Below, in pieces: positions 2,853 through 12,400 of a stretch of DNA of 12,400 bases. Within the stretch, counting starts at the first letter, position 1. Each line of letters opens with the position of its first letter. The notes beneath the pieces are model-generated. The model was not told the origin of the DNA and did not search any database. It saw only the letters and a program-made list of their open reading frames with translations. Source of the DNA: a candidate division WWE3 bacterium (GTDB lineage Bacteria > Patescibacteriota > 4484-211 > JAGQKX01); the NCBI GenBank assembly GCA_020429905.1, contig JAGQKX010000009.1, forward strand, positions 1 through 12,400, in the 5' to 3' direction. Position numbers and translations under genes: made by a program.

Positions 2853-2884
2853 AGGAGGGAGATGGCTCTCCCTCCTTCTTTTTT
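2853..2884 (+). terminator. Strong hairpin with plus-strand T tract downstream of the UbiA gene
   Basis: AGGAGGGAGA (2853-2862) and TCTCCCTCCT (2867-2876) form a perfect 10-bp stem with a TGGC loop, followed on the plus strand by TTCTTTTTT, which overlaps the stop codon of the minus-strand UbiA gene. As a plus-strand element it is a textbook intrinsic terminator, yet no plus-strand gene lies nearby. Read on the minus strand the same stem is followed only by CTCTGACCTTGTT, so it may terminate UbiA transcripts weakly. Confidence 0.6.
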
Positions 2885-3707
2885 ATGCACTCACGAGCAC
2901 GATTAAAAACCAAACAAAAAAAGCCATTTTCATCATGCCGCTTGTCTTTTCTAGTGTTTTTGTACACGTTGTTCGAGCAACACGAATCATACTGAAAATG
3001 GTTACCGTTACAGGGATCAACGCGAGTAGTGCGTAATCGAACCCATATGAGACAGTGGGGCAAAGTATTGCTCCTACTGTACAAACGGCCAGAATCTCAA
3101 ACGCAATACGGGTGCGTTTTGGGCCTAGGACCACAGCAGTTTTTTGACAGTTTCCTTGAGTATCACCATCAATATCTGCTAGGTCTTTGACCAACTCTCT
3201 AGCCAAAATTCCGAAGAATACAACAATTGCCAATGGAATTCCTGCTTTCCAATTGCCACCAGCGGTGGCTCCAAACAATGGGACAAGAGCAGAAATACCA
3301 GCAACGGTGAGATTGCTGACAAACACAGTACACTTAAGGCTGGTAGCGTAGAGTGCTAGGGTTAGAGTGACGATGATTGAAATCGAGAATAACCCATGGT
3401 CAAGCAAAATAGAGATACCATTTCCGATACAGAATAGGGCTACTGCCAGTATAGTAGCTTGTCTATAGGAAAGGTCGCCATGAGGGATTGGCCTCCATGG
3501 CTTGTTTACCAGGTCGATGTTTCGGTCATACACATCGTTTACTGTATTTCCAGCGCCTTGAATACAAAGCACTGCAAGAGCAGCTAAAACGATGGACCAC
3601 CAATCATTCGCACCGGCTACATATCCACCCAGTATTGTCGCCAAAACACCACTCAATGTAGTTCCTGGCCTGACAAGGCGGATAACTCCCCGAGGAACGT
3701 TTCTCAT
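2883..3707 (-). CDS. UbiA-family prenyltransferase
   Basis: A 274-residue integral membrane protein. The first aspartate-rich motif N-D-V-Y-D-R-N-I-D (57-65) is followed by L-V-N-K-P-W-R-P-I-P-H-G, and the second is K-D-L-A-D-I-D-G-D (174-182); these two motifs bind the Mg-diphosphate of the prenyl donor. Eight or nine hydrophobic helices surround them. The sequence after motif 1 (N-K-P-x-R-P-I-P-x-G) resembles the digeranylgeranylglyceryl-phosphate synthase/geranylgeranyltransferase branch at least as much as the UbiA/MenA quinone branch, but the acceptor cannot be assigned: quinone ring, chlorin/heme or glycerol phosphate are all possible. A clear Shine-Dalgarno sequence (GAGGAGG) lies 4 nt before ATG 3707. 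The gene has its own promoter and is divergent from the fusion gene at 3836. Confidence 0.85.
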   Translation of the reverse strand: MRNVPRGVIRLVRPGTTLSGVLATILGGYVAGANDWWSIVLAALAVLCIQGAGNTVNDVYDRNIDLVNKPWRPIPHGDLSYRQATILAVALFCIGNGISILLDHGLFSISIIVTLTLALYATSLKCTVFVSNLTVAGISALVPLFGATAGGNWKAGIPLAIVVFFGILARELVKDLADIDGDTQGNCQKTAVVLGPKRTRIAFEILAVCTVGAILCPTVSYGFDYALLALIPVTVTIFSMIRVARTTCTKTLEKTSGMMKMAFFVWFLIVLVSA

Positions 3708-3835: not shown

Positions 3836-6094
3836 ATGCCTCGAATCAACAATGATCAACAACCTAATGTTATCAATTGCATTCAATCCGTTGAAGAAAA
3901 AAGATCCAATATTCTCGAAATTGCCACCACAAACAAAAATAAATTAGCCGAGTTTCAACGAATTTTCTCCGAATATACTGTCGTGGGAGTTAAGTTATCT
4001 GTTGATGAAATTCAATCGCTTGATCCCTATGAGGTCGTAAGGGAAAAAGCGAAAGTAGCCTGGCAACAGAATGGTTGTAATCCAGTCTTAGTGGAAGATA
4101 CATCGCTCGAAATCAGAGGGTTGGCTGATAGACCCGGTGTGTATGTGAACGATTTTTTCAGCGAGGTAGAAATACGTAGATTGGCGGCGGAAAAATGGTT
4201 AAAAGATGCTGATCGGAGAGCGGTTGCTCGAGTATTATTGGCTATTTATGATGGGGTTGAAGCGCATATTTTTGAAGGTACCGTCGACGGTTCGATTTCT
4301 GAAGACCTTAGAGGAACTAATGGTTTTGGTTGGGATGATTTTTTTATTCCAGCTGGTCAACCAAACAGTGAGTCCAAAACGTTTGCGGAGATGACTGACG
4401 ATGAAAAGGATACGTATTCGATGAGAAACAAAGCAGCACATGCATTTAGAAATTCAAATCTAAAGCTTGCCGAACTGGTATATGAATTACCCGAACCACT
4501 TGATTCTGAAATGCTTCGAGTTCAAACTGGGTCATTGGGCGATAGCGGAGCTGTCGATTTTGCTTTTAGACTAGAGGGCATTGAAGATAATAACACGCCT
4601 AATGCTAATTTTGAGGCTACTGCCTATACTCCGATTATCAAAGAGCAGAACGATTTCTATCGCCGCTATGTATTGACCCGAGATTCCGCCAGTCTCGGAG
4701 TAGTGGTAACAGATGTAGACCGGGCGAAGAGTCTTACCTACCAAAACGGGGAGCCGCGTATTTGGCAGATGGGCCCACAACGGCGCCGTTTAGCACTCGC
4801 GCAACGTGCTGAATATTGGCTTCGTAATATTCAACCCGACGTATTAACTACGCTCGAAAAATTAGAAAATGGAACCGCAACAATCCCGCAGCGTTCGAAT
4901 CGGAAATCTGTCACCGTAGAACATATGCTAAAAATGATTGACGAAGTTCCACTAGAAGCACACGCGCTAAAGGAACTTGGGTATAAAAAACTATCTTCAA
5001 CTCAGAAAGTAAGCCGGACAACGGGGGCACAGTTTGGTCTTTTTAACAAAATCGGCAAACATTATCGTTCGTTCTTGGGTATTGGATCTATGCCGGCAAT
5101 ATCCGGATGGAGAGATGTGATCGTGACTTCGATTGTTGGCAATATGCCCGTCTTTATTTCACGAAACAATATTTTTGCCGAAAACGAATCGTTGCGGATT
5201 TCGCTAGTGAGCCAAGTACAAAAGGTGATTGACTCACTTGCTGTTGACGACATTCACAAACAACGTCTCCGTCAAAATATTGGAGTTGCAATAGGAGCAA
5301 GTGATGTTTCCTTAGAAATCGAACGCGTAAATAAATTTGTAAAACAGGGTGTGAAAATGTTTAGGATCTACACGATCAATAGTGATCCACGTGTCATTGA
5401 GGTCGCTTCGGGATTGCGTCGTGAATTTGGAGACGAAATTGAAATTTTTGCCGGTCAAATAGCAGATAAGAAGCAGGCAAAGAGGCTGATTGATGAAGCT
5501 CGAGTAGACGGATTGATCTTTGGACATGGTGGCGGGCGGCAATGCACATCGGCGGTAAATGGGATGGCGATTACTACGTTGGAAGAAATTTATGCCGTAG
5601 TGACGGATTCCTATTTTAACGATGTTTCTGTTATTGCCGAAGGTGGAGTAGGTAAAAATATCGGTCCGTTGCTGATACTGGGTGTGGATGCGGTCCTGTA
5701 TAGTCAGCAACTGGCTCGCGGCACGATAGAGTGCGGTGGGGTTTTTTTGCAAGACCGAGAGGGTGATTTTGGACAACCATATCACGGCAGTGCGAGTGCT
5801 CCGACCATGATTATTGAGGCTGCAAATGAACGTTTAAAAGATGCCCGCCTTACGAAATCAGGAAGGACGAAAGTACCAGAAGGAAAGCCTGGATTCCTAA
5901 AATACACTGAGAAAGCCAATTCAATGACTTTCTGGATTGATGAATTCAGACACCACTTGGCCCGAACACTTGCTGATATAGGAGTAAAAGATATTGCAGA
6001 AATGCGAACGTTTCTGTCTGAAAACGATGAAGAACTATTACGTGTGGTATCTTCTGGAGCGGCGAGTATTGCCCAAGCATATGGGGCTTCTTAA
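3836..6094 (+). CDS. Fusion: HAM1/RdgB-like NTP pyrophosphatase plus IMP dehydrogenase/GMP reductase-like domain
   Basis: A 752-residue protein in one uninterrupted frame. Residues about 26-215 are a HAM1/RdgB (ITPA-type) domain: T-T-N-K-N-K (31-36), E-D-T-S-L-E (87-92, catalytic Asp88), R-G-T-N-G-F-G-W-D (159-167) and T-F-A-E-M-T-x-x-E-K (182-191). This family cleaves ITP, dITP and XTP to the monophosphate. The usual S-H-R base-selecting motif reads S-M-R (195-197). Residues about 230-400 are not recognised. Residues about 410-752 follow the IMPDH/GMP reductase barrel: G-V-A-I-G (483-487), the loop with the catalytic-type cysteine G-G-G-R-Q-C-T-S (Cys570), A-E-G-G-V-G (601-606), G-V-D-A-V (616-620), and the C-terminal Y-H-G-S plus V-P-E-G-K-P-G (680-686). 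No CBS domains are seen. The Asp of the IMPDH I-D-T motif appears replaced by Tyr512. The two activities meet at IMP and XMP. Domain identities are confident; activity of either half is not. Confidence 0.85.
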   Translation: MPRINNDQQPNVINCIQSVEEKRSNILEIATTNKNKLAEFQRIFSEYTVVGVKLSVDEIQSLDPYEVVREKAKVAWQQNGCNPVLVEDTSLEIRGLADRPGVYVNDFFSEVEIRRLAAEKWLKDADRRAVARVLLAIYDGVEAHIFEGTVDGSISEDLRGTNGFGWDDFFIPAGQPNSESKTFAEMTDDEKDTYSMRNKAAHAFRNSNLKLAELVYELPEPLDSEMLRVQTGSLGDSGAVDFAFRLEGIEDNNTPNANFEATAYTPIIKEQNDFYRRYVLTRDSASLGVVVTDVDRAKSLTYQNGEPRIWQMGPQRRRLALAQRAEYWLRNIQPDVLTTLEKLENGTATIPQRSNRKSVTVEHMLKMIDEVPLEAHALKELGYKKLSSTQKVSRTTGAQFGLFNKIGKHYRSFLGIGSMPAISGWRDVIVTSIVGNMPVFISRNNIFAENESLRISLVSQVQKVIDSLAVDDIHKQRLRQNIGVAIGASDVSLEIERVNKFVKQGVKMFRIYTINSDPRVIEVASGLRREFGDEIEIFAGQIADKKQAKRLIDEARVDGLIFGHGGGRQCTSAVNGMAITTLEEIYAVVTDSYFNDVSVIAEGGVGKNIGPLLILGVDAVLYSQQLARGTIECGGVFLQDREGDFGQPYHGSASAPTMIIEAANERLKDARLTKSGRTKVPEGKPGFLKYTEKANSMTFWIDEFRHHLARTLADIGVKDIAEMRTFLSENDEELLRVVSSGAASIAQAYGAS

Positions 6095-6100
6095 TTTTTT

Positions 6101-7342
6101 CTAGTATCCAACTGTGAAGAGAGCTACTTCATCGAGGAAGACGGTTCCAGCAGAACCTTGATACAGATAAAGCTGTACGCTGGCCGTAGATACGTCAGCA
6201 TTTGATGGGGTATAGTGAGCCGAAAAATCTTTTACCTGTCCTGGAGCCACTAGTCCAACCCACTGTCCAGAAATCCAATTTCCTGCTTGATCATATTCAT
6301 CAATATAAAATCCAAATTCACCAGCAGTCATTTTATCTGCGTTTACGTATGCCTGGAGTAAATATTCATTTCCATAGGTAACACTTACATTTGGTGAAAA
6401 TAAGTGAATGGACTTATTGGCGACTGCATTGAATCGGATCGAGTTGGCAGGAGAAGGATAACGGCCATTGTTTCGGGTATTAAAGGTGATTCTATTAGCA
6501 TTATCACTTGTCCATGCGCCTAATCCTCCGACAAAATTTCCGGATGGTAGTAAGTTAACTCCTGGATCAATTAGCGTGTGATTAAGTTTTTCGACTTGAA
6601 TTCCGCTGCCCACAATATAATCAGCAATCGCTTCGAAATCATCTATCGTTGTGGTGTATTCATAATCAGGAAGGAGTTCTGGCTGAATTTCATGGAATAC
6701 TAAAATAAGCCACTTGTTTTGGGCGATTGCTTGATCAATCCAGCTGTACACTTGTGCTAACGTAGTGCTACTTTCAACTGATTGAACCATAAGCACTGTT
6801 TTATTAAATGGCCACGTATTGAGATCATCTCGATCCCAAAATCCACGGTGAACGTTGTAATATTTTGAAGCTTCGACTAGCACCCGATTATCGTACGCTC
6901 CATAGGGGGTAGCAAAAGACGTTGCCTGAATACCGTGGTTAGCTAATTGAGTAGCGGATTGGGCGATTTCTTTTCTGATCTGGGAATTTGATAATAGCGG
7001 GAGCTCAGGGTGAGTTTTGGAGTGACTGCCTACCTCCCAACCGTACGTATCCTGTAAAGATTTTACTTGAGACCAATTCATGTACCCGCTTGAACCCACG
7101 AGGTTAGTAATAATGAATGAGGTAGCTGGAATATTTCGGTCAGCTAAGATAGGGAGGGCATTCTCATATTGAGAAGTTAGGCCATCGTCGAAGGTTAGAG
7201 ATATTTTTGCTTCGTGGTAACTATTTTGCGAGGCATGTTGTGCAAACGTTTCGACCCCATGAGCAAGAAACATACCCATGAAAAATAAACTGATAAAAAA
7301 GAAAAATGTGTTTTTTGATTTTATGATCGAGCCTCTTCTCAT
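6101..7342 (-). CDS. Exported polysaccharide deacetylase (NodB/CE4) with C-terminal carbohydrate-binding-like domain
   Basis: A 413-residue protein. An N-terminal hydrophobic segment (about 12-34) follows a basic head (MRRGSIIKSK) and ends near A-Q-H-A, so it is exported. The NodB domain (about 45-255) shows motif 1 T-F-D-D-G (50-54; Asp52 catalytic, Asp53 metal), motif 2 H-S-K-T-H (107-111; metal ligands), motif 3 T-P-Y-G (145-148, with Ala-Thr where many enzymes have Arg-Pro) and the C-terminal V-F-H-E (215-218). Such enzymes remove N-acetyl groups from GlcNAc polymers or peptidoglycan. Residues about 260-413 look like a beta-sandwich carbohydrate-binding module (N-L-L-P-S-G-N-F start, L-Q-A-Y-V-N-A and V-F-L-D-E-V-A-L-F near the end, as in CBM4/9-type folds). 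The gene lies 6 nt after the sortase stop, the last of four in the cluster, and is tail to tail with the fusion gene (6 bp apart). Confidence 0.87.
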   Translation of the reverse strand: MRRGSIIKSKNTFFFFISLFFMGMFLAHGVETFAQHASQNSYHEAKISLTFDDGLTSQYENALPILADRNIPATSFIITNLVGSSGYMNWSQVKSLQDTYGWEVGSHSKTHPELPLLSNSQIRKEIAQSATQLANHGIQATSFATPYGAYDNRVLVEASKYYNVHRGFWDRDDLNTWPFNKTVLMVQSVESSTTLAQVYSWIDQAIAQNKWLILVFHEIQPELLPDYEYTTTIDDFEAIADYIVGSGIQVEKLNHTLIDPGVNLLPSGNFVGGLGAWTSDNANRITFNTRNNGRYPSPANSIRFNAVANKSIHLFSPNVSVTYGNEYLLQAYVNADKMTAGEFGFYIDEYDQAGNWISGQWVGLVAPGQVKDFSAHYTPSNADVSTASVQLYLYQGSAGTVFLDEVALFTVGY

Positions 7343-7348
7343 AATTTA

Positions 7349-8014
7349 TTACTTGGATATGTTGGTTTGACGAGCATGAACAACATATCGTTTTTCAGAG
7401 AAGATACCGTCACACGTAACGAGTGTTAATGTTGGTGTATCGGTTGGATAAAAAACATTCACATCACTCGGTTGAGTAATTGTGCTCTCTGATACTGTGT
7501 ATTGTACACTATATCCCTCAATAGTGGTAACCGAAATTGTATCTCCCTCGGATAAAAGCTTGATGTTGCGAAAAGCTTGGTCGCGATCGTGACCATACAA
7601 CCCAACATTTCCGCTCTCTTTGCCAATCAGACTCGTTCCTTCTGCATAGTTAGCAACGTAGTCGTAGACCTTCCAGGTTCCGTTCTGAAGCGGGACTGAA
7701 ACTACAGGCAAATCCAGGTTGATTTTGGTAATGGTGATACTTGATGGCCGTAAGTTTGAAATATTTTCTTTTTCTTCCGGTTGATCAGAGGAGAGATATG
7801 TTTCTGTTGGCTTGGCGATATACAGTGCTCCTAAATCTGACTGTTCAGCGTCTTGTCCTAATATTTGGGTAACTACGGCTGGTATTGGGTTAGAAGCCCA
7901 AATTACCCCGAACCCTTTCACCATATACCATAATTGAATGGTGCTGAGGGCGAGAATAATACCCAATAACAAATACGGTCCATCAAATGTATACCATTTA
8001 AATAGCTTGCGCAT
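7349..8014 (-). CDS. Sortase (class D/E-like transpeptidase)
   Basis: A 221-residue protein with an N-terminal membrane anchor (about 12-33), a variable linker, and a sortase domain from about residue 88. The catalytic triad is visible: His142 in L-Y-G-H-D-R-D, Cys201 in L-T-L-V-T-C-D-G and Arg209 in K-R-Y-V-V-H-A. The G-H-D/A-F-R-N-I-K-L-L-S-E-G-D-T-I block is the family signature. Sortases cut an LPxTG-like signal and join the protein to a nucleophile such as lipid II or a pilin lysine. The gene starts 2 nt after the stop of a 65-residue LPATT-containing protein, its likely substrate, and precedes a polysaccharide deacetylase. A single N-terminal anchor and short size fit class D or E better than class B. 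The start lacks a strong Shine-Dalgarno sequence, so it is probably coupled to the upstream gene. Confidence 0.9.
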   Translation of the reverse strand: MRKLFKWYTFDGPYLLLGIILALSTIQLWYMVKGFGVIWASNPIPAVVTQILGQDAEQSDLGALYIAKPTETYLSSDQPEEKENISNLRPSSITITKINLDLPVVSVPLQNGTWKVYDYVANYAEGTSLIGKESGNVGLYGHDRDQAFRNIKLLSEGDTISVTTIEGYSVQYTVSESTITQPSDVNVFYPTDTPTLTLVTCDGIFSEKRYVVHARQTNISK

Positions 8015-8016
8015 GA

Positions 8017-8214
8017 TTATTCGTTAGCTCTTCGCTTATTAATGAGATATCGACTGATCATAGCCGCACTCAAAACGAGGTTCACTCCAGTAAGTAACAA
8101 TAGACCGGCAATGATCCATGCGTTAGCGCGATTAAGCATAATAAGCCCAGCTGCTGTTGTAGCTGGTAATGTTGTGGCAGCTCCGATAACTGCTCCCTGC
8201 GTATAATTTGTCAT
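8017..8214 (-). CDS. 65-residue membrane protein resembling a bare cell-wall sorting signal
   Basis: The product has about 15 small, polar or neutral residues, then LPATT (16-20), a mixed stretch, a hydrophobic helix (about 32-57) and a basic tail I-N-K-R-R (58-62). That order (LPxTx, hydrophobic span, positive tail) is the layout of a sortase recognition signal, though the motif ends in Thr-Ala instead of Gly and the gap to the helix is longer than usual. No separate N-terminal signal peptide is present; the positive-inside rule would place the N-terminus and LPATT outside. Cleavage after Thr19 would leave a peptide of only 19 residues. A good ribosome binding site (GGGGGTGA, 8224-8231) stands 9 nt before the ATG, which supports translation. 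It sits directly before the sortase. Alternatively it is a simple small membrane protein with a chance LPxT. Confidence 0.7.
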   Translation of the reverse strand: MTNYTQGAVIGAATTLPATTAAGLIMLNRANAWIIAGLLLLTGVNLVLSAAMISRYLINKRRANE

Positions 8215-8241
8215 AGTTTTTGTTCACCCCCTAGATTTGTA

Positions 8242-9471
8242 TTATCTGGTTCCCCAGGTATCTGAGTAACCGAATTCAAAAAATGTTTTTTTACTAGCCT
8301 GAGATATTTTTTTCAATCCCGGCACCATCTCGAGTAACTTTGAAACAATACGCTTATATAAAAAATACGAATACGTTCCGATTAATAACCAACTTAAAAT
8401 ATTGCTATAAATAAATTCTGGGATGAGACTCAGGCGAATCAACCAATCAACAATGTCAGCGTCTTGATAAACAAGAAGGGTAAAGACATTAAAAACAAAT
8501 GAAATAAAAAATTGAAAGATGGCGAATAGGATAAGGAGTTGAACGAGTGGAGAGGCTTCCTGATGGTTGGGGAGCATGAACGATAACGTGATAAACGTCA
8601 TCATAAAAATAAATGACAGGTGTCCGATCAGGTCTTGGATAATGGATGGTATGTAACGCAGATGACTGGTAACAACCTGAAGTCCTCCGGTTGTCCAGCG
8701 CACCCGTTGTCTCCAGAGTTTACCAAACTGGGTTGGTACTTCAGTCCATGCGGCGGCTCCCGGTTGGACCATCACTTGCCAGCCGTGTTGTTTAAGTCGA
8801 GCGGTAATGTCATAGTCTTCGATGAGGTGTTTGGCTGTAAATCCACCGACCTCTATTAACGCAGAATATCTAAAAGCCACGAGCATCCCCTGCATAACCA
8901 ATGGTCCTTGAATGAAACCGTTATCGGCGATTTTAGAAATATTAAACCCATGATACTCGAGAGCCTGTAATCGAGTGAGTAAATTTTTATTTTTATTGAC
9001 AACCCTGACTTGTGAACATGCCGCTCCAATTTCTGCATTTTCTTGCAACGCCTTCACCAGCAGCGCAATTGTATTTGGTTCAACTTCTACATCATCATCA
9101 AACGTAACGATGACATCAGGATGTGTCTGGGAATTTTTTATATAGGTCAGACCAAAATTGGTCGCGGCGGCTTTGAGTTTGTTTTCGGGTGTATGGATCA
9201 GGGTTATTTGATCGTTTTTTGCTGATAAATTGTTAATTTTATTAAGTACGCTATTGTGGGGATATTTTGAAGTCGTGCAGTCATCGACAACCACAATGTG
9301 CATGCTTGGGTTATACGCATGTAATGCTGTTACCAATCGGTAAAGAGCAGAATCAGGATTGAACGTCGGGATGATGGCTGCTACTCGAGCTTTCTCACCA
9401 AAAACCGCCTTCGAATTGTAGACGAGTTTTTTGGGTTTCCAGAGTTGTGTAGCTATAGCAATAACATTCAT
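8242..9471 (-). CDS. Family 2 processive glycosyltransferase (PgaC/hyaluronan synthase-like)
   Basis: A 409-residue protein with a GT-A domain: I-I-P-T-F-N (33-38), V-V-V-D-D (60-64), the metal-binding T-F-D-D-D (123-127), I-E-D-Y-D (217-221, catalytic-base region) and Q-R-V-R-W (255-259), the Q-x-x-R-W motif of processive beta-glycan synthases. Three C-terminal membrane blocks follow (about 282-300, 307-335, 342-373). The two N-terminal helices found in PgaC/IcaA-type enzymes are missing, so this is a short version. The product is likely a beta-linked polymer of GlcNAc, glucose or similar sugars pushed through the membrane; the deacetylase three genes on favours an N-acetylated polymer, as in the poly-GlcNAc pairs PgaC-PgaB and IcaA-IcaB. 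It is the first gene of the cluster and has its own promoter. No Shine-Dalgarno sequence is seen before ATG 9471. Confidence 0.88.
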   Translation of the reverse strand: MNVIAIATQLWKPKKLVYNSKAVFGEKARVAAIIPTFNPDSALYRLVTALHAYNPSMHIVVVDDCTTSKYPHNSVLNKINNLSAKNDQITLIHTPENKLKAAATNFGLTYIKNSQTHPDVIVTFDDDVEVEPNTIALLVKALQENAEIGAACSQVRVVNKNKNLLTRLQALEYHGFNISKIADNGFIQGPLVMQGMLVAFRYSALIEVGGFTAKHLIEDYDITARLKQHGWQVMVQPGAAAWTEVPTQFGKLWRQRVRWTTGGLQVVTSHLRYIPSIIQDLIGHLSFIFMMTFITLSFMLPNHQEASPLVQLLILFAIFQFFISFVFNVFTLLVYQDADIVDWLIRLSLIPEFIYSNILSWLLIGTYSYFLYKRIVSKLLEMVPGLKKISQASKKTFFEFGYSDTWGTR

Positions 9472-11742: not shown

Positions 11743-11772
11743 ATTATACTACGGGATACATTGAGGGGTTAA
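11743..11772 (-). promoter_or_regulatory. Promoter of the adenylate kinase gene
   Basis: Minus-strand TTAACC (11767-11772), 18-nt spacer, and a perfect TATAAT (11743-11748). The -35 overlaps the stop codon of the CYTH gene. The leader is about 40 nt and holds a direct repeat GAAATGTG at 11720-11727 and 11730-11737. Confidence 0.55.
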
Positions 11773-12400
11773 GCTGATTTTATAAGCTTTTTATAAATTT
11801 TTTGTTCGTGTTCCCAGACATTCCACTGCGGATCCTCGGTAAATTTCTCGAACGCTGTTTCATGATGATCAAATTCCTTTACATTTTTAAGCCAGATAAA
11901 ACTTGTAGCCATCGCTGTTGGGCTCCACTCTTTTTCTTCCAAAATGTTTTGAATCAGTTCTGAGGTGTCTATTGTGGTGTTACGCAGTTCAATTAAGATT
12001 CCGACATTATCAACCATATCAATCACAAGTTCTGCATCCGGACTAACGTAGACTTGTCTGACTTTATGTACTTGTTGTTCCGACTGTAACCCTAATTGCA
12101 GCAGGTGCTTCTGTAGCGTTCGCCCGTTGATCAGTGATTCCTCAGGGCTCTCTAATTCAAGACGATCAAATAATTTATTTATGGCTTTGAAGTCCTTGAA
12201 AGGAGTATCAATCGTGATTTCTTCCGTGATGAAATTTTGTTTCCCTTTTGGGGAATAAAACACCTTTTTAAACGTGAGCGAATGGTCGGCCCCATCAATA
12301 AGCCGAAGTCTGAAAGATGCGAGGTGGTTATAAAAATGCCAGTCAGAAGTGTCAAAATAGATATCATGCTGGTTAAGGGTCTCGGTACGAGAAAATCCGT
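11769..12400 (-). CDS. CYTH-domain protein (triphosphate tunnel family), N-terminus beyond the window
   Basis: The open frame continues to the right edge, so 210 codons are visible and the true start is outside; the GTG at 12263 is internal. Upstream of it the frame reads D-I-Y-F-D-T, then a block with F-R-L-R-L and L-T-F-K-K, which are the paired beta strands of the CYTH/triphosphate tunnel fold: alternating Arg and Lys residues line the tunnel. Further acidic and basic strands follow (T-E-E-I-T-I-D, V-H-K-V-R-Q-V-Y-V, D-A-E-L-V-I-D-M-V-D, I-L-I-E-L-R). The defining N-terminal E-x-E-x-K lies beyond the edge. Known members are class IV adenylyl cyclases, thiamine triphosphatases and inorganic triphosphatases, and substrate choice cannot be made here. 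The C-terminal 40 residues (W-L-K-N-V-K onwards) are charged and not recognised. Confidence 0.75.
   Translation of the reverse strand, partial: GFSRTETLNQHDIYFDTSDWHFYNHLASFRLRLIDGADHSLTFKKVFYSPKGKQNFITEEITIDTPFKDFKAINKLFDRLELESPEESLINGRTLQKHLLQLGLQSEQQVHKVRQVYVSPDAELVIDMVDNVGILIELRNTTIDTSELIQNILEEKEWSPTAMATSFIWLKNVKEFDHHETAFEKFTEDPQWNVWEHEQKIYKKLIKSA

Follow-up and report, generated by a model that had tools for sequence, protein, structure and literature searches.

Enzymes of the RdgB/HAM1/ITPA family (PF01725) usually recognise the base through an S-H-R motif. A HAM1-like protein, KomB, is also part of the deoxyinosine nucleotide sensor of the Kongming anti-phage system, where its partners are deaminase and SIR2 proteins. 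In barrels of the IMP dehydrogenase (IMPDH)/GMP reductase (GMPR) type, the Asp of an A-D-G-G motif contacts the ribose. Simulation of T. foetus IMPDH has revealed an additional way of activating water, through Thr321 and Glu431, for which a mutant gave support; Thr321 is reported to occur in every IMPDH and GMPR, Glu431 to be conserved in the GMPRs, and the Thr321 pathway is proposed, from simulation, mutant and phylogeny, to be ancestral and to have been the first IMPDH's only means of water activation (PMC2525682). In V. cholerae IMPDH, Asp250 holds the nicotinamide ribose and two Gly residues hold the nicotinamide carboxamide, and the same source describes a cofactor site that has diverged among IMPDHs (PMC4342496).

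Here, we describe a protein that joins both kinds of domain, encoded in a 12,400-nucleotide stretch of DNA from a candidate division WWE3 bacterium (the whole of this stretch is referred to as the window). The gene is a single uninterrupted ATG frame of 752 aa plus stop (Table 1). Pfam Ham1p_like (PF01725) matched residues 29–205 with 130.1 bits (E 1.1e-37; gathering cut-off 22.5), and Pfam IMPDH (PF00478) matched residues 460–737 with 78.9 bits (E 4.8e-22; gathering cut-off 25.6), so that both domain matches are far above chance. The frame and the two matches confirm the architecture given in the original prediction, which had read one continuous 752-codon frame with a HAM1 and an IMPDH/GMPR part, and had named a failure of HMM scans to find one of the domains as evidence against it; both were detected in the query protein. 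In the 30-row family alignment (A1), HAM1 was detected in 30 members and IMPDH in 25 (E up to 1), and the start codon of the frame is supported by the near invariance of M1, P2 and R3. The barrel, which had been placed at residues ~410–752, begins earlier, at about residue 381, as judged against the aligned E. coli GuaB and GuaC; a profile alignment to canonical IMPDH (probability 96.9%) likewise began at residue 381.

Table 1 Features of the fusion gene in the window.
Feature	Position in window	Strand	Basis
Whole gene: HAM1 domain, middle region and IMPDH/GMPR-like barrel, 752 aa	3836..6094	+	
HAM1/RdgB (ITPase-type) domain, residues 29–205	3920..4450	+	Pfam PF01725 (130.1 bits) and conserved residues
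Middle region, residues 216–380, in fused and standalone members	4481..4975	+	Matches no known family
IMPDH/GMPR-type barrel, residues ~381–752, without CBS domains	4976..6091	+	PF00478, profile, GuaB/GuaC alignments
Catalytic loop G-H-G-G-G-R-Q-C570-T-S572-A-V-N-G-M	5522..5566	+	Cys codon 5543–5545; C570 aligned to GuaB C305 and GuaC C186

With an E-value limit of 1e-3, a protein search with the query gave 207 matches. Among the best 120 of these (query included), the other 119 were 50–60% identical over 94–100% of the query, and 148 fetched relatives besides the query were at least 700 aa long, some of them on contigs of several Mb. The full-length relatives come from Chloroflexota and scattered Patescibacteria, and a scan of GTDB genomes with the family alignment identified 42 loci, comprising 32 in Chloroflexota, 3 in Dojkabacteria, 2 in WWE3 and 5 in Woesebacteria. 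Within the phylum of the window, the fusion was found in 3 of 379 genomes at E up to 1e-40, the source genome included, and among 57 relatives examined, none gave a full-length match. This patchy distribution suggests transfer between groups. The condition named beforehand as counting against a fusion, that homologues always occur as two separate genes, did not arise, most of the fetched homologues being fused. A virus origin was considered and set aside, no relative being present in viral_contigs (single-sequence query); one Parcubacteria protein (P0028) bears the source name 'Euphorbia ringspot virus', an apparent annotation error that perhaps derives from a viral HAM1 name. In a literature search by title and abstract opening, with few subscription journals covered, neither a HAM1–IMPDH fusion nor a lost GuaB in these groups was found. 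Taken together, this is a real family in two phyla for which no earlier description was found, and there is good evidence that its role lies in purine nucleotide metabolism.

Conservation of the HAM1 domain includes N33, K36, E58, K71, E87, D88 (Asp or Glu), W166, D167, K191 and R197, such that the query shares with RdgB/HAM1/ITPA proteins the T-x-N-x-x-K motif, E58, K71, the W-D pair, K191 and R197. E58, K71, E87 and P100 are invariant among members with a residue there. The triphosphate-site Asn and Lys are likewise kept: of 148 members in which these positions are occupied, all have K36 and 144 have N33, with Tyr replacing N33 in the other 4. N33 and K36 correspond to N16 and K19 of human ITPA, and their RdgB counterparts are reported to matter for activity (PMC8893687). 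By contrast with RdgB/HAM1/ITPA proteins, the query is fused, scores below the equivalog cut-off of NCBIfam TIGR00042 (106.8 of 145.35 bits) and has Met for the His of S-H-R. Among 167 members with a residue at this His position, Met occurs in 149 and His in 1. At the Asp88 position, the family also departs from RdgB/HAM1/ITPA: of the 150 members that have a residue here, 88 have Glu and 62 Asp. These residues indicate that the HAM1 domain probably works, and that its base preference is perhaps shifted.

Conservation in the barrel was counted over a set of 190 proteins that includes the query; 4 of under 500 aa were dropped, which left 186. The catalytic Cys, C570, together with N575, E602, Y649 and E682, was present in 186/186 members and S572 in 185/186, and the loop G-H-G-G-G-x-Q-C-T-S-A-x-N-G-M was nearly invariant across the family. 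In alignments, S572 corresponds to GuaB T307 and GuaC T188, E682 to GuaB E415 and GuaC E289, and E602 to GuaB D338. The barrel therefore resembles IMP dehydrogenase GuaB (PF00478, TIGR01302) in its Cys loop, in the Tyr that follows this loop (Y649, presumably with an active-site role), in the Glu431 equivalent E682 and in barrel order. It differs from GuaB in lacking CBS domains, in its additional middle region and at several active-site positions. Thr321 is replaced by Ser in 185/186 members, and the flap elements attributed to the C-terminus by the original prediction do not include the Arg418-Tyr419 pair: no Arg-Tyr occurred anywhere in residues 655–680 in any of the 186 members (0/186), while R677 of the flap region is invariant. 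Tyr512, found in 186/186, aligns to Asp248 of E. coli GuaB, the nicotinamide-ribose Asp (Asp250 in V. cholerae), and Glu602 stands in 186/186 where the A-D-G-G motif has Asp. The residue before the catalytic Cys is Arg, Gln or Met in place of Ser in 185/186, and G563 and G565 are kept in 186/186. The query reached 66.9 of the 481.5 bits set as the TIGR01302 IMPDH equivalog cut-off. Among the replaced residues are ones with which IMPDH binds its cofactor and the phosphate. As cofactor-site residues are replaced and the carboxamide Gly residues are kept, the barrel may act on IMP with an unusual cofactor fit, or on another compound.

Between these two domains, residues 216–380 gave zero family matches in a Pfam scan, and a search with this segment alone returned zero relatives among proteins whose lengths lay between 0.55 and 1.75 times that of the segment. 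Profile comparison with the HAM1 part and with canonical IMPDH also gave no match (probabilities of 1.2 and 0.2 percent, respectively), and the segment was accordingly rejected as a second HAM1 or a piece of canonical barrel. Its mean majority-residue share over the 186 members (0.62) compares with 0.71 for the HAM1 part and 0.72 for the barrel. By these sequence measures, residues 216–380 are a separate conserved region, previously undescribed.

In a HAM1 tree, 40 fused HAM1 domains formed one clade (support 100/99); of 13 other HAM1 loci, 8 passed the pattern and were included, L003, L005, L011, L015 and L067 being left out. The Woesebacteria HAM1 genes were the probable sister of this clade, placed beside and not inside it (83/90). 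In Woesebacteria, the barrel gene has no HAM1 part, and at 5/5 readable loci a separate HAM1 gene lies head-to-head beside it, with 35–197 bp between the frame starts as called by script. Four of these loci (L054–L057) represent a larger standalone group and one (L061, P0150) a smaller one, as assigned by source name or identity. Because a HAM1 gene adjoins the barrel gene at all five standalone loci, the partnership of HAM1 and barrel thus outlasts the covalent bond.

In the barrel tree, rooted by six canonical IMPDHs (L020 not among them), 29 standalone barrels were nested inside the fused ones, two label changes were needed, and none of the 200 bootstrap trees (0%) had a single branch that set the standalone barrels apart from the rest. 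One protein of 556 aa with the source name 'IMP dehydrogenase' (P0172) has the Met of the SMR motif as its first residue; because of this start, which makes it likely that a fused member was called too short, it was counted as fused in the finished tree. Given the nesting and the two label changes, the fusion would be the older state so far as the root holds, and, with the same proviso, HAM1 would have been lost from the polypeptide repeatedly, or a single time with a later re-joining. The Woesebacteria HAM1 genes may be a recruited sister copy rather than the product of a simple split, as the HAM1 tree sets them beside the fused clade. In four fused members close to the standalone groups (P0141, P0143, P0144 and P0149), Tyr replaces N33 and T31 is Ser, Asn or Pro, as if the HAM1 activity had passed to another copy.

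The fusion gene is flanked upstream by a UbiA prenyltransferase gene pointing away from it and downstream by a converging polysaccharide deacetylase gene. A Pfam scan of ten window proteins showed no further IMPDH or HAM1 domain, and an operon with purine genes, likewise sought by Pfam, was not seen in the window (neighbour clusters of other loci were viewed by eye). The UbiA-family protein (2883–3707, − strand) is nearest to geranylgeranylglycerol-phosphate geranylgeranyltransferase models, under their cut-offs. On the other side, a polysaccharide deacetylase with a carbohydrate-binding domain, a sortase and a family 2 glycosyltransferase lie in a row (6101–9471, − strand), possibly as a cell-surface cluster. 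Elsewhere in the window are an RNase H-like protein (PF13482; 1008–1619, − strand) with a weak PADLOC DEDDh match of 18.5 bits, and a 164-aa protein (11769–12263, − strand) with no Pfam match and a weak class IV adenylate cyclase (CyaB) match of 21 bits, under the cut-off.

Pathway content was assessed in 27 of the 42 carrier genomes, namely 18 of 32 Chloroflexota and 9 of 10 Patescibacteria (L035 left out of the latter). PurH (PF01808) was present in 18/18 Chloroflexota and 0/9 Patescibacteria carriers, and the GMP synthase GuaA (PF00958) in 17/18 and 1/9, respectively. A PF00478 search found a canonical IMPDH in 0/18 of the tested Chloroflexota carriers. PF00478 matches above the cut-off did occur in 16/27 carrier genomes; in the 18 Chloroflexota, the top matches (44.9 and 38.8 bits) were the fusion itself and the next scored 28.4 bits, compared with 280–542 bits for canonical IMPDHs among the matches listed in a class survey (see below). 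Ten of the weak PF00478 matches, from nine of these Chloroflexota genomes, were also rescanned as possible hidden canonical IMPDHs, five of them slightly exceeding the PF00478 cut-off, and were rejected, the best family being FMN_dh, Glu_synthase or S-methyl_trans in 10/10. The fusion was the only HAM1 match in 14/18 Chloroflexota carriers, the other four (G061, G066, G072 and G076) having an additional ordinary HAM1 of over 190 bits. In the window's own genome (77% complete), the HAM1 and IMPDH families matched solely in the fusion, and GuaA was not found.

With PurH in 18/18, GuaA in 17/18 and canonical IMPDH in 0/18, the fusion protein is, from gene content, the best candidate for the step from IMP to XMP in the tested Chloroflexota carriers. 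For comparison, we surveyed 199 genomes of the class of one Chloroflexota carrier (G063), counting a PF00478 match as strong at a best E under 1e-50. Strong matches were present in 123/199 genomes, and the remaining 76 comprised 49 with weak matches and 27 with none; some of the weak matches, near 1e-10 or 1e-11, could be further divergent barrels. The fusion occurred in 2/199 genomes, G063 itself and the known carrier G059, neither of which has a strong match. Comparison of 0/18 with 123/197 by Fisher's test gave 8e-8, a figure that serves as a guide only, the carriers being related and not independent. A real weakness of the pathway argument lies in the 74 of 199 genomes with neither a strong IMPDH nor the fusion, and the IMPDH gap may reflect incomplete data, uptake of guanine or some further route that escaped notice. 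Patescibacteria carriers are mostly without GuaA, so that XMP would there have no outlet by the usual route; in these genomes, the barrel might run in a GMPR-like direction or the protein might serve clean-up alone. The suggestion, made at the outset, that the fusion recycles damaged purine nucleotides into the guanylate pathway has thus fared unevenly: the single fused clade and the five head-to-head loci speak for a functional link of HAM1 and barrel, its place in the guanylate pathway is supported only in the tested Chloroflexota, and the scarcity of GuaA in Patescibacteria carriers counts against it.

We consider it about an even call that the protein is a bifunctional purine-nucleotide enzyme, in which HAM1 clean-up is combined with a divergent barrel that replaces GuaB in Chloroflexota, recycling IMP and XMP. 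The HAM1 domain would cut non-canonical purine triphosphates (ITP, XTP and their deoxy forms) to monophosphates, and the barrel would represent a divergent branch of the IMPDH/GMPR superfamily with Cys570 acting on purine C2. In Chloroflexota, the barrel would take the place of GuaB, pass XMP to GuaA and so bridge the gap between PurH and GuaA, while the joining of the domains could allow IMP or XMP that had strayed into the triphosphate pool to be handed back to the enzyme acting on it. As the Arg-Tyr pair is absent, hydrolysis of the covalent E-XMP* might proceed via a Ser572/Glu682 relay, the counterpart of the Thr321–Glu431 pathway, or the invariant Arg677 of the flap region might act as the base instead. 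The two activities, what the barrel uses as substrate and cofactor, and the channelling are inferences, and we regard a role as substitute IMPDH as credible but unproven. A link between ITPase and IMPDH is known: trypanosomes lacking ITPase tolerate IMPDH inhibition less well, loss of ITPase combined with IMPDH defects leads to more inosine in nucleic acids, and ITPase loss is reported, for trypanosomes and bacteria, to be more harmful when IMPDH is impaired (PMC9016069). More tentatively, the family may be a third, biochemically distinct IMPDH/GMPR branch with a HAM1 partner, forming XMP without the Arg418-Tyr419 machinery by a Thr/Ser–Glu relay like that proposed for the ancestral IMPDH, having a remodelled cofactor site and replacing GuaB in certain bacterial lineages.

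Other readings were weighed against the same data. A barrel that lacks a normal nicotinamide site and has new chemistry, such as hydrolysis of a C2-substituted purine nucleotide (e.g. GMP to XMP) or action on a non-IMP nucleotide, the monophosphate being made by HAM1 from an unusual triphosphate, is possible though rather unlikely. It would accommodate the almost invariant Cys loop, the Tyr in place of the nicotinamide-ribose Asp and the Glu602 in place of the A-D-G-G Asp (186/186 each), the changed residue before the Cys, the reading of SHR as SMR and the conserved middle region; however, the Gly pair kept in all members (G563 and G565) has a carboxamide-holding counterpart, and IMPDH cofactor sites are reported to be diverged (PMC4342496). 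We give a smaller share of belief to a GMPR-type barrel, in which Cys570 would attack GMP, ammonia would leave and the adduct would be reduced to IMP, with HAM1 guarding against the resulting ITP. Such an enzyme would suit salvage-living Patescibacteria, in which GuaA is absent from 8/9 carriers, and E. coli GuaC resembles the family in Cys186, Thr188 (here Ser), Glu289 and the absence of an Arg-Tyr pair at the aligned place; Glu431 is a conserved residue of GMPRs (PMC2525682). Yet the query matched zero GMPR models at E up to 0.01, and members of A1 favoured TIGR01302 (13/30) over the GMPR models (at most 2/30 each, weakly); the Asp of the GuaC IDVANG motif is also Tyr here, the extra region sets the protein apart from GuaC, and the Chloroflexota context asks for XMP, which would be without a source if the barrel were a GMPR.

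A defence function related to KomB of the Kongming system appears very improbable, even though, of the PDB entries, KomB (8zsg_V) matched the HAM1 part best (A1 profile, 120.5 bits) and has the SMR, FAEM and FIP motifs in common with it. KomB has His at the Asp88 position, where the family has Asp or Glu in 150/150 members with a residue there, and it sat on a long unplaced branch in the HAM1 tree. Unlike in the full system, Kongming partners were not seen in the window, Pfam detecting no SIR2 or deaminase family in its ten proteins; PADLOC (2023 library) had no match for the query protein, nor for one Woesebacteria pair of barrel and HAM1. Finally, a join of two genes by assembly or annotation can be regarded as ruled out for practical purposes: no evidence for it was found, and the existence of the 148 long relatives, some on contigs of several Mb, means that the fusion is no assembly artefact.

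Returning to the reading as a bifunctional enzyme, family proteins carry source names such as hypothetical protein, XTP/dITP diphosphohydrolase and IMP dehydrogenase, and, should the barrel produce XMP, an enzyme that has gone unrecognised would have taken on an essential step in making guanine nucleotides. If this is true, the family would provide a natural test of the water activation by Thr321 alone that is proposed for the first IMPDH (PMC2525682), and housecleaning would be seen in physical union with the enzyme whose substrate is the origin of the damage.
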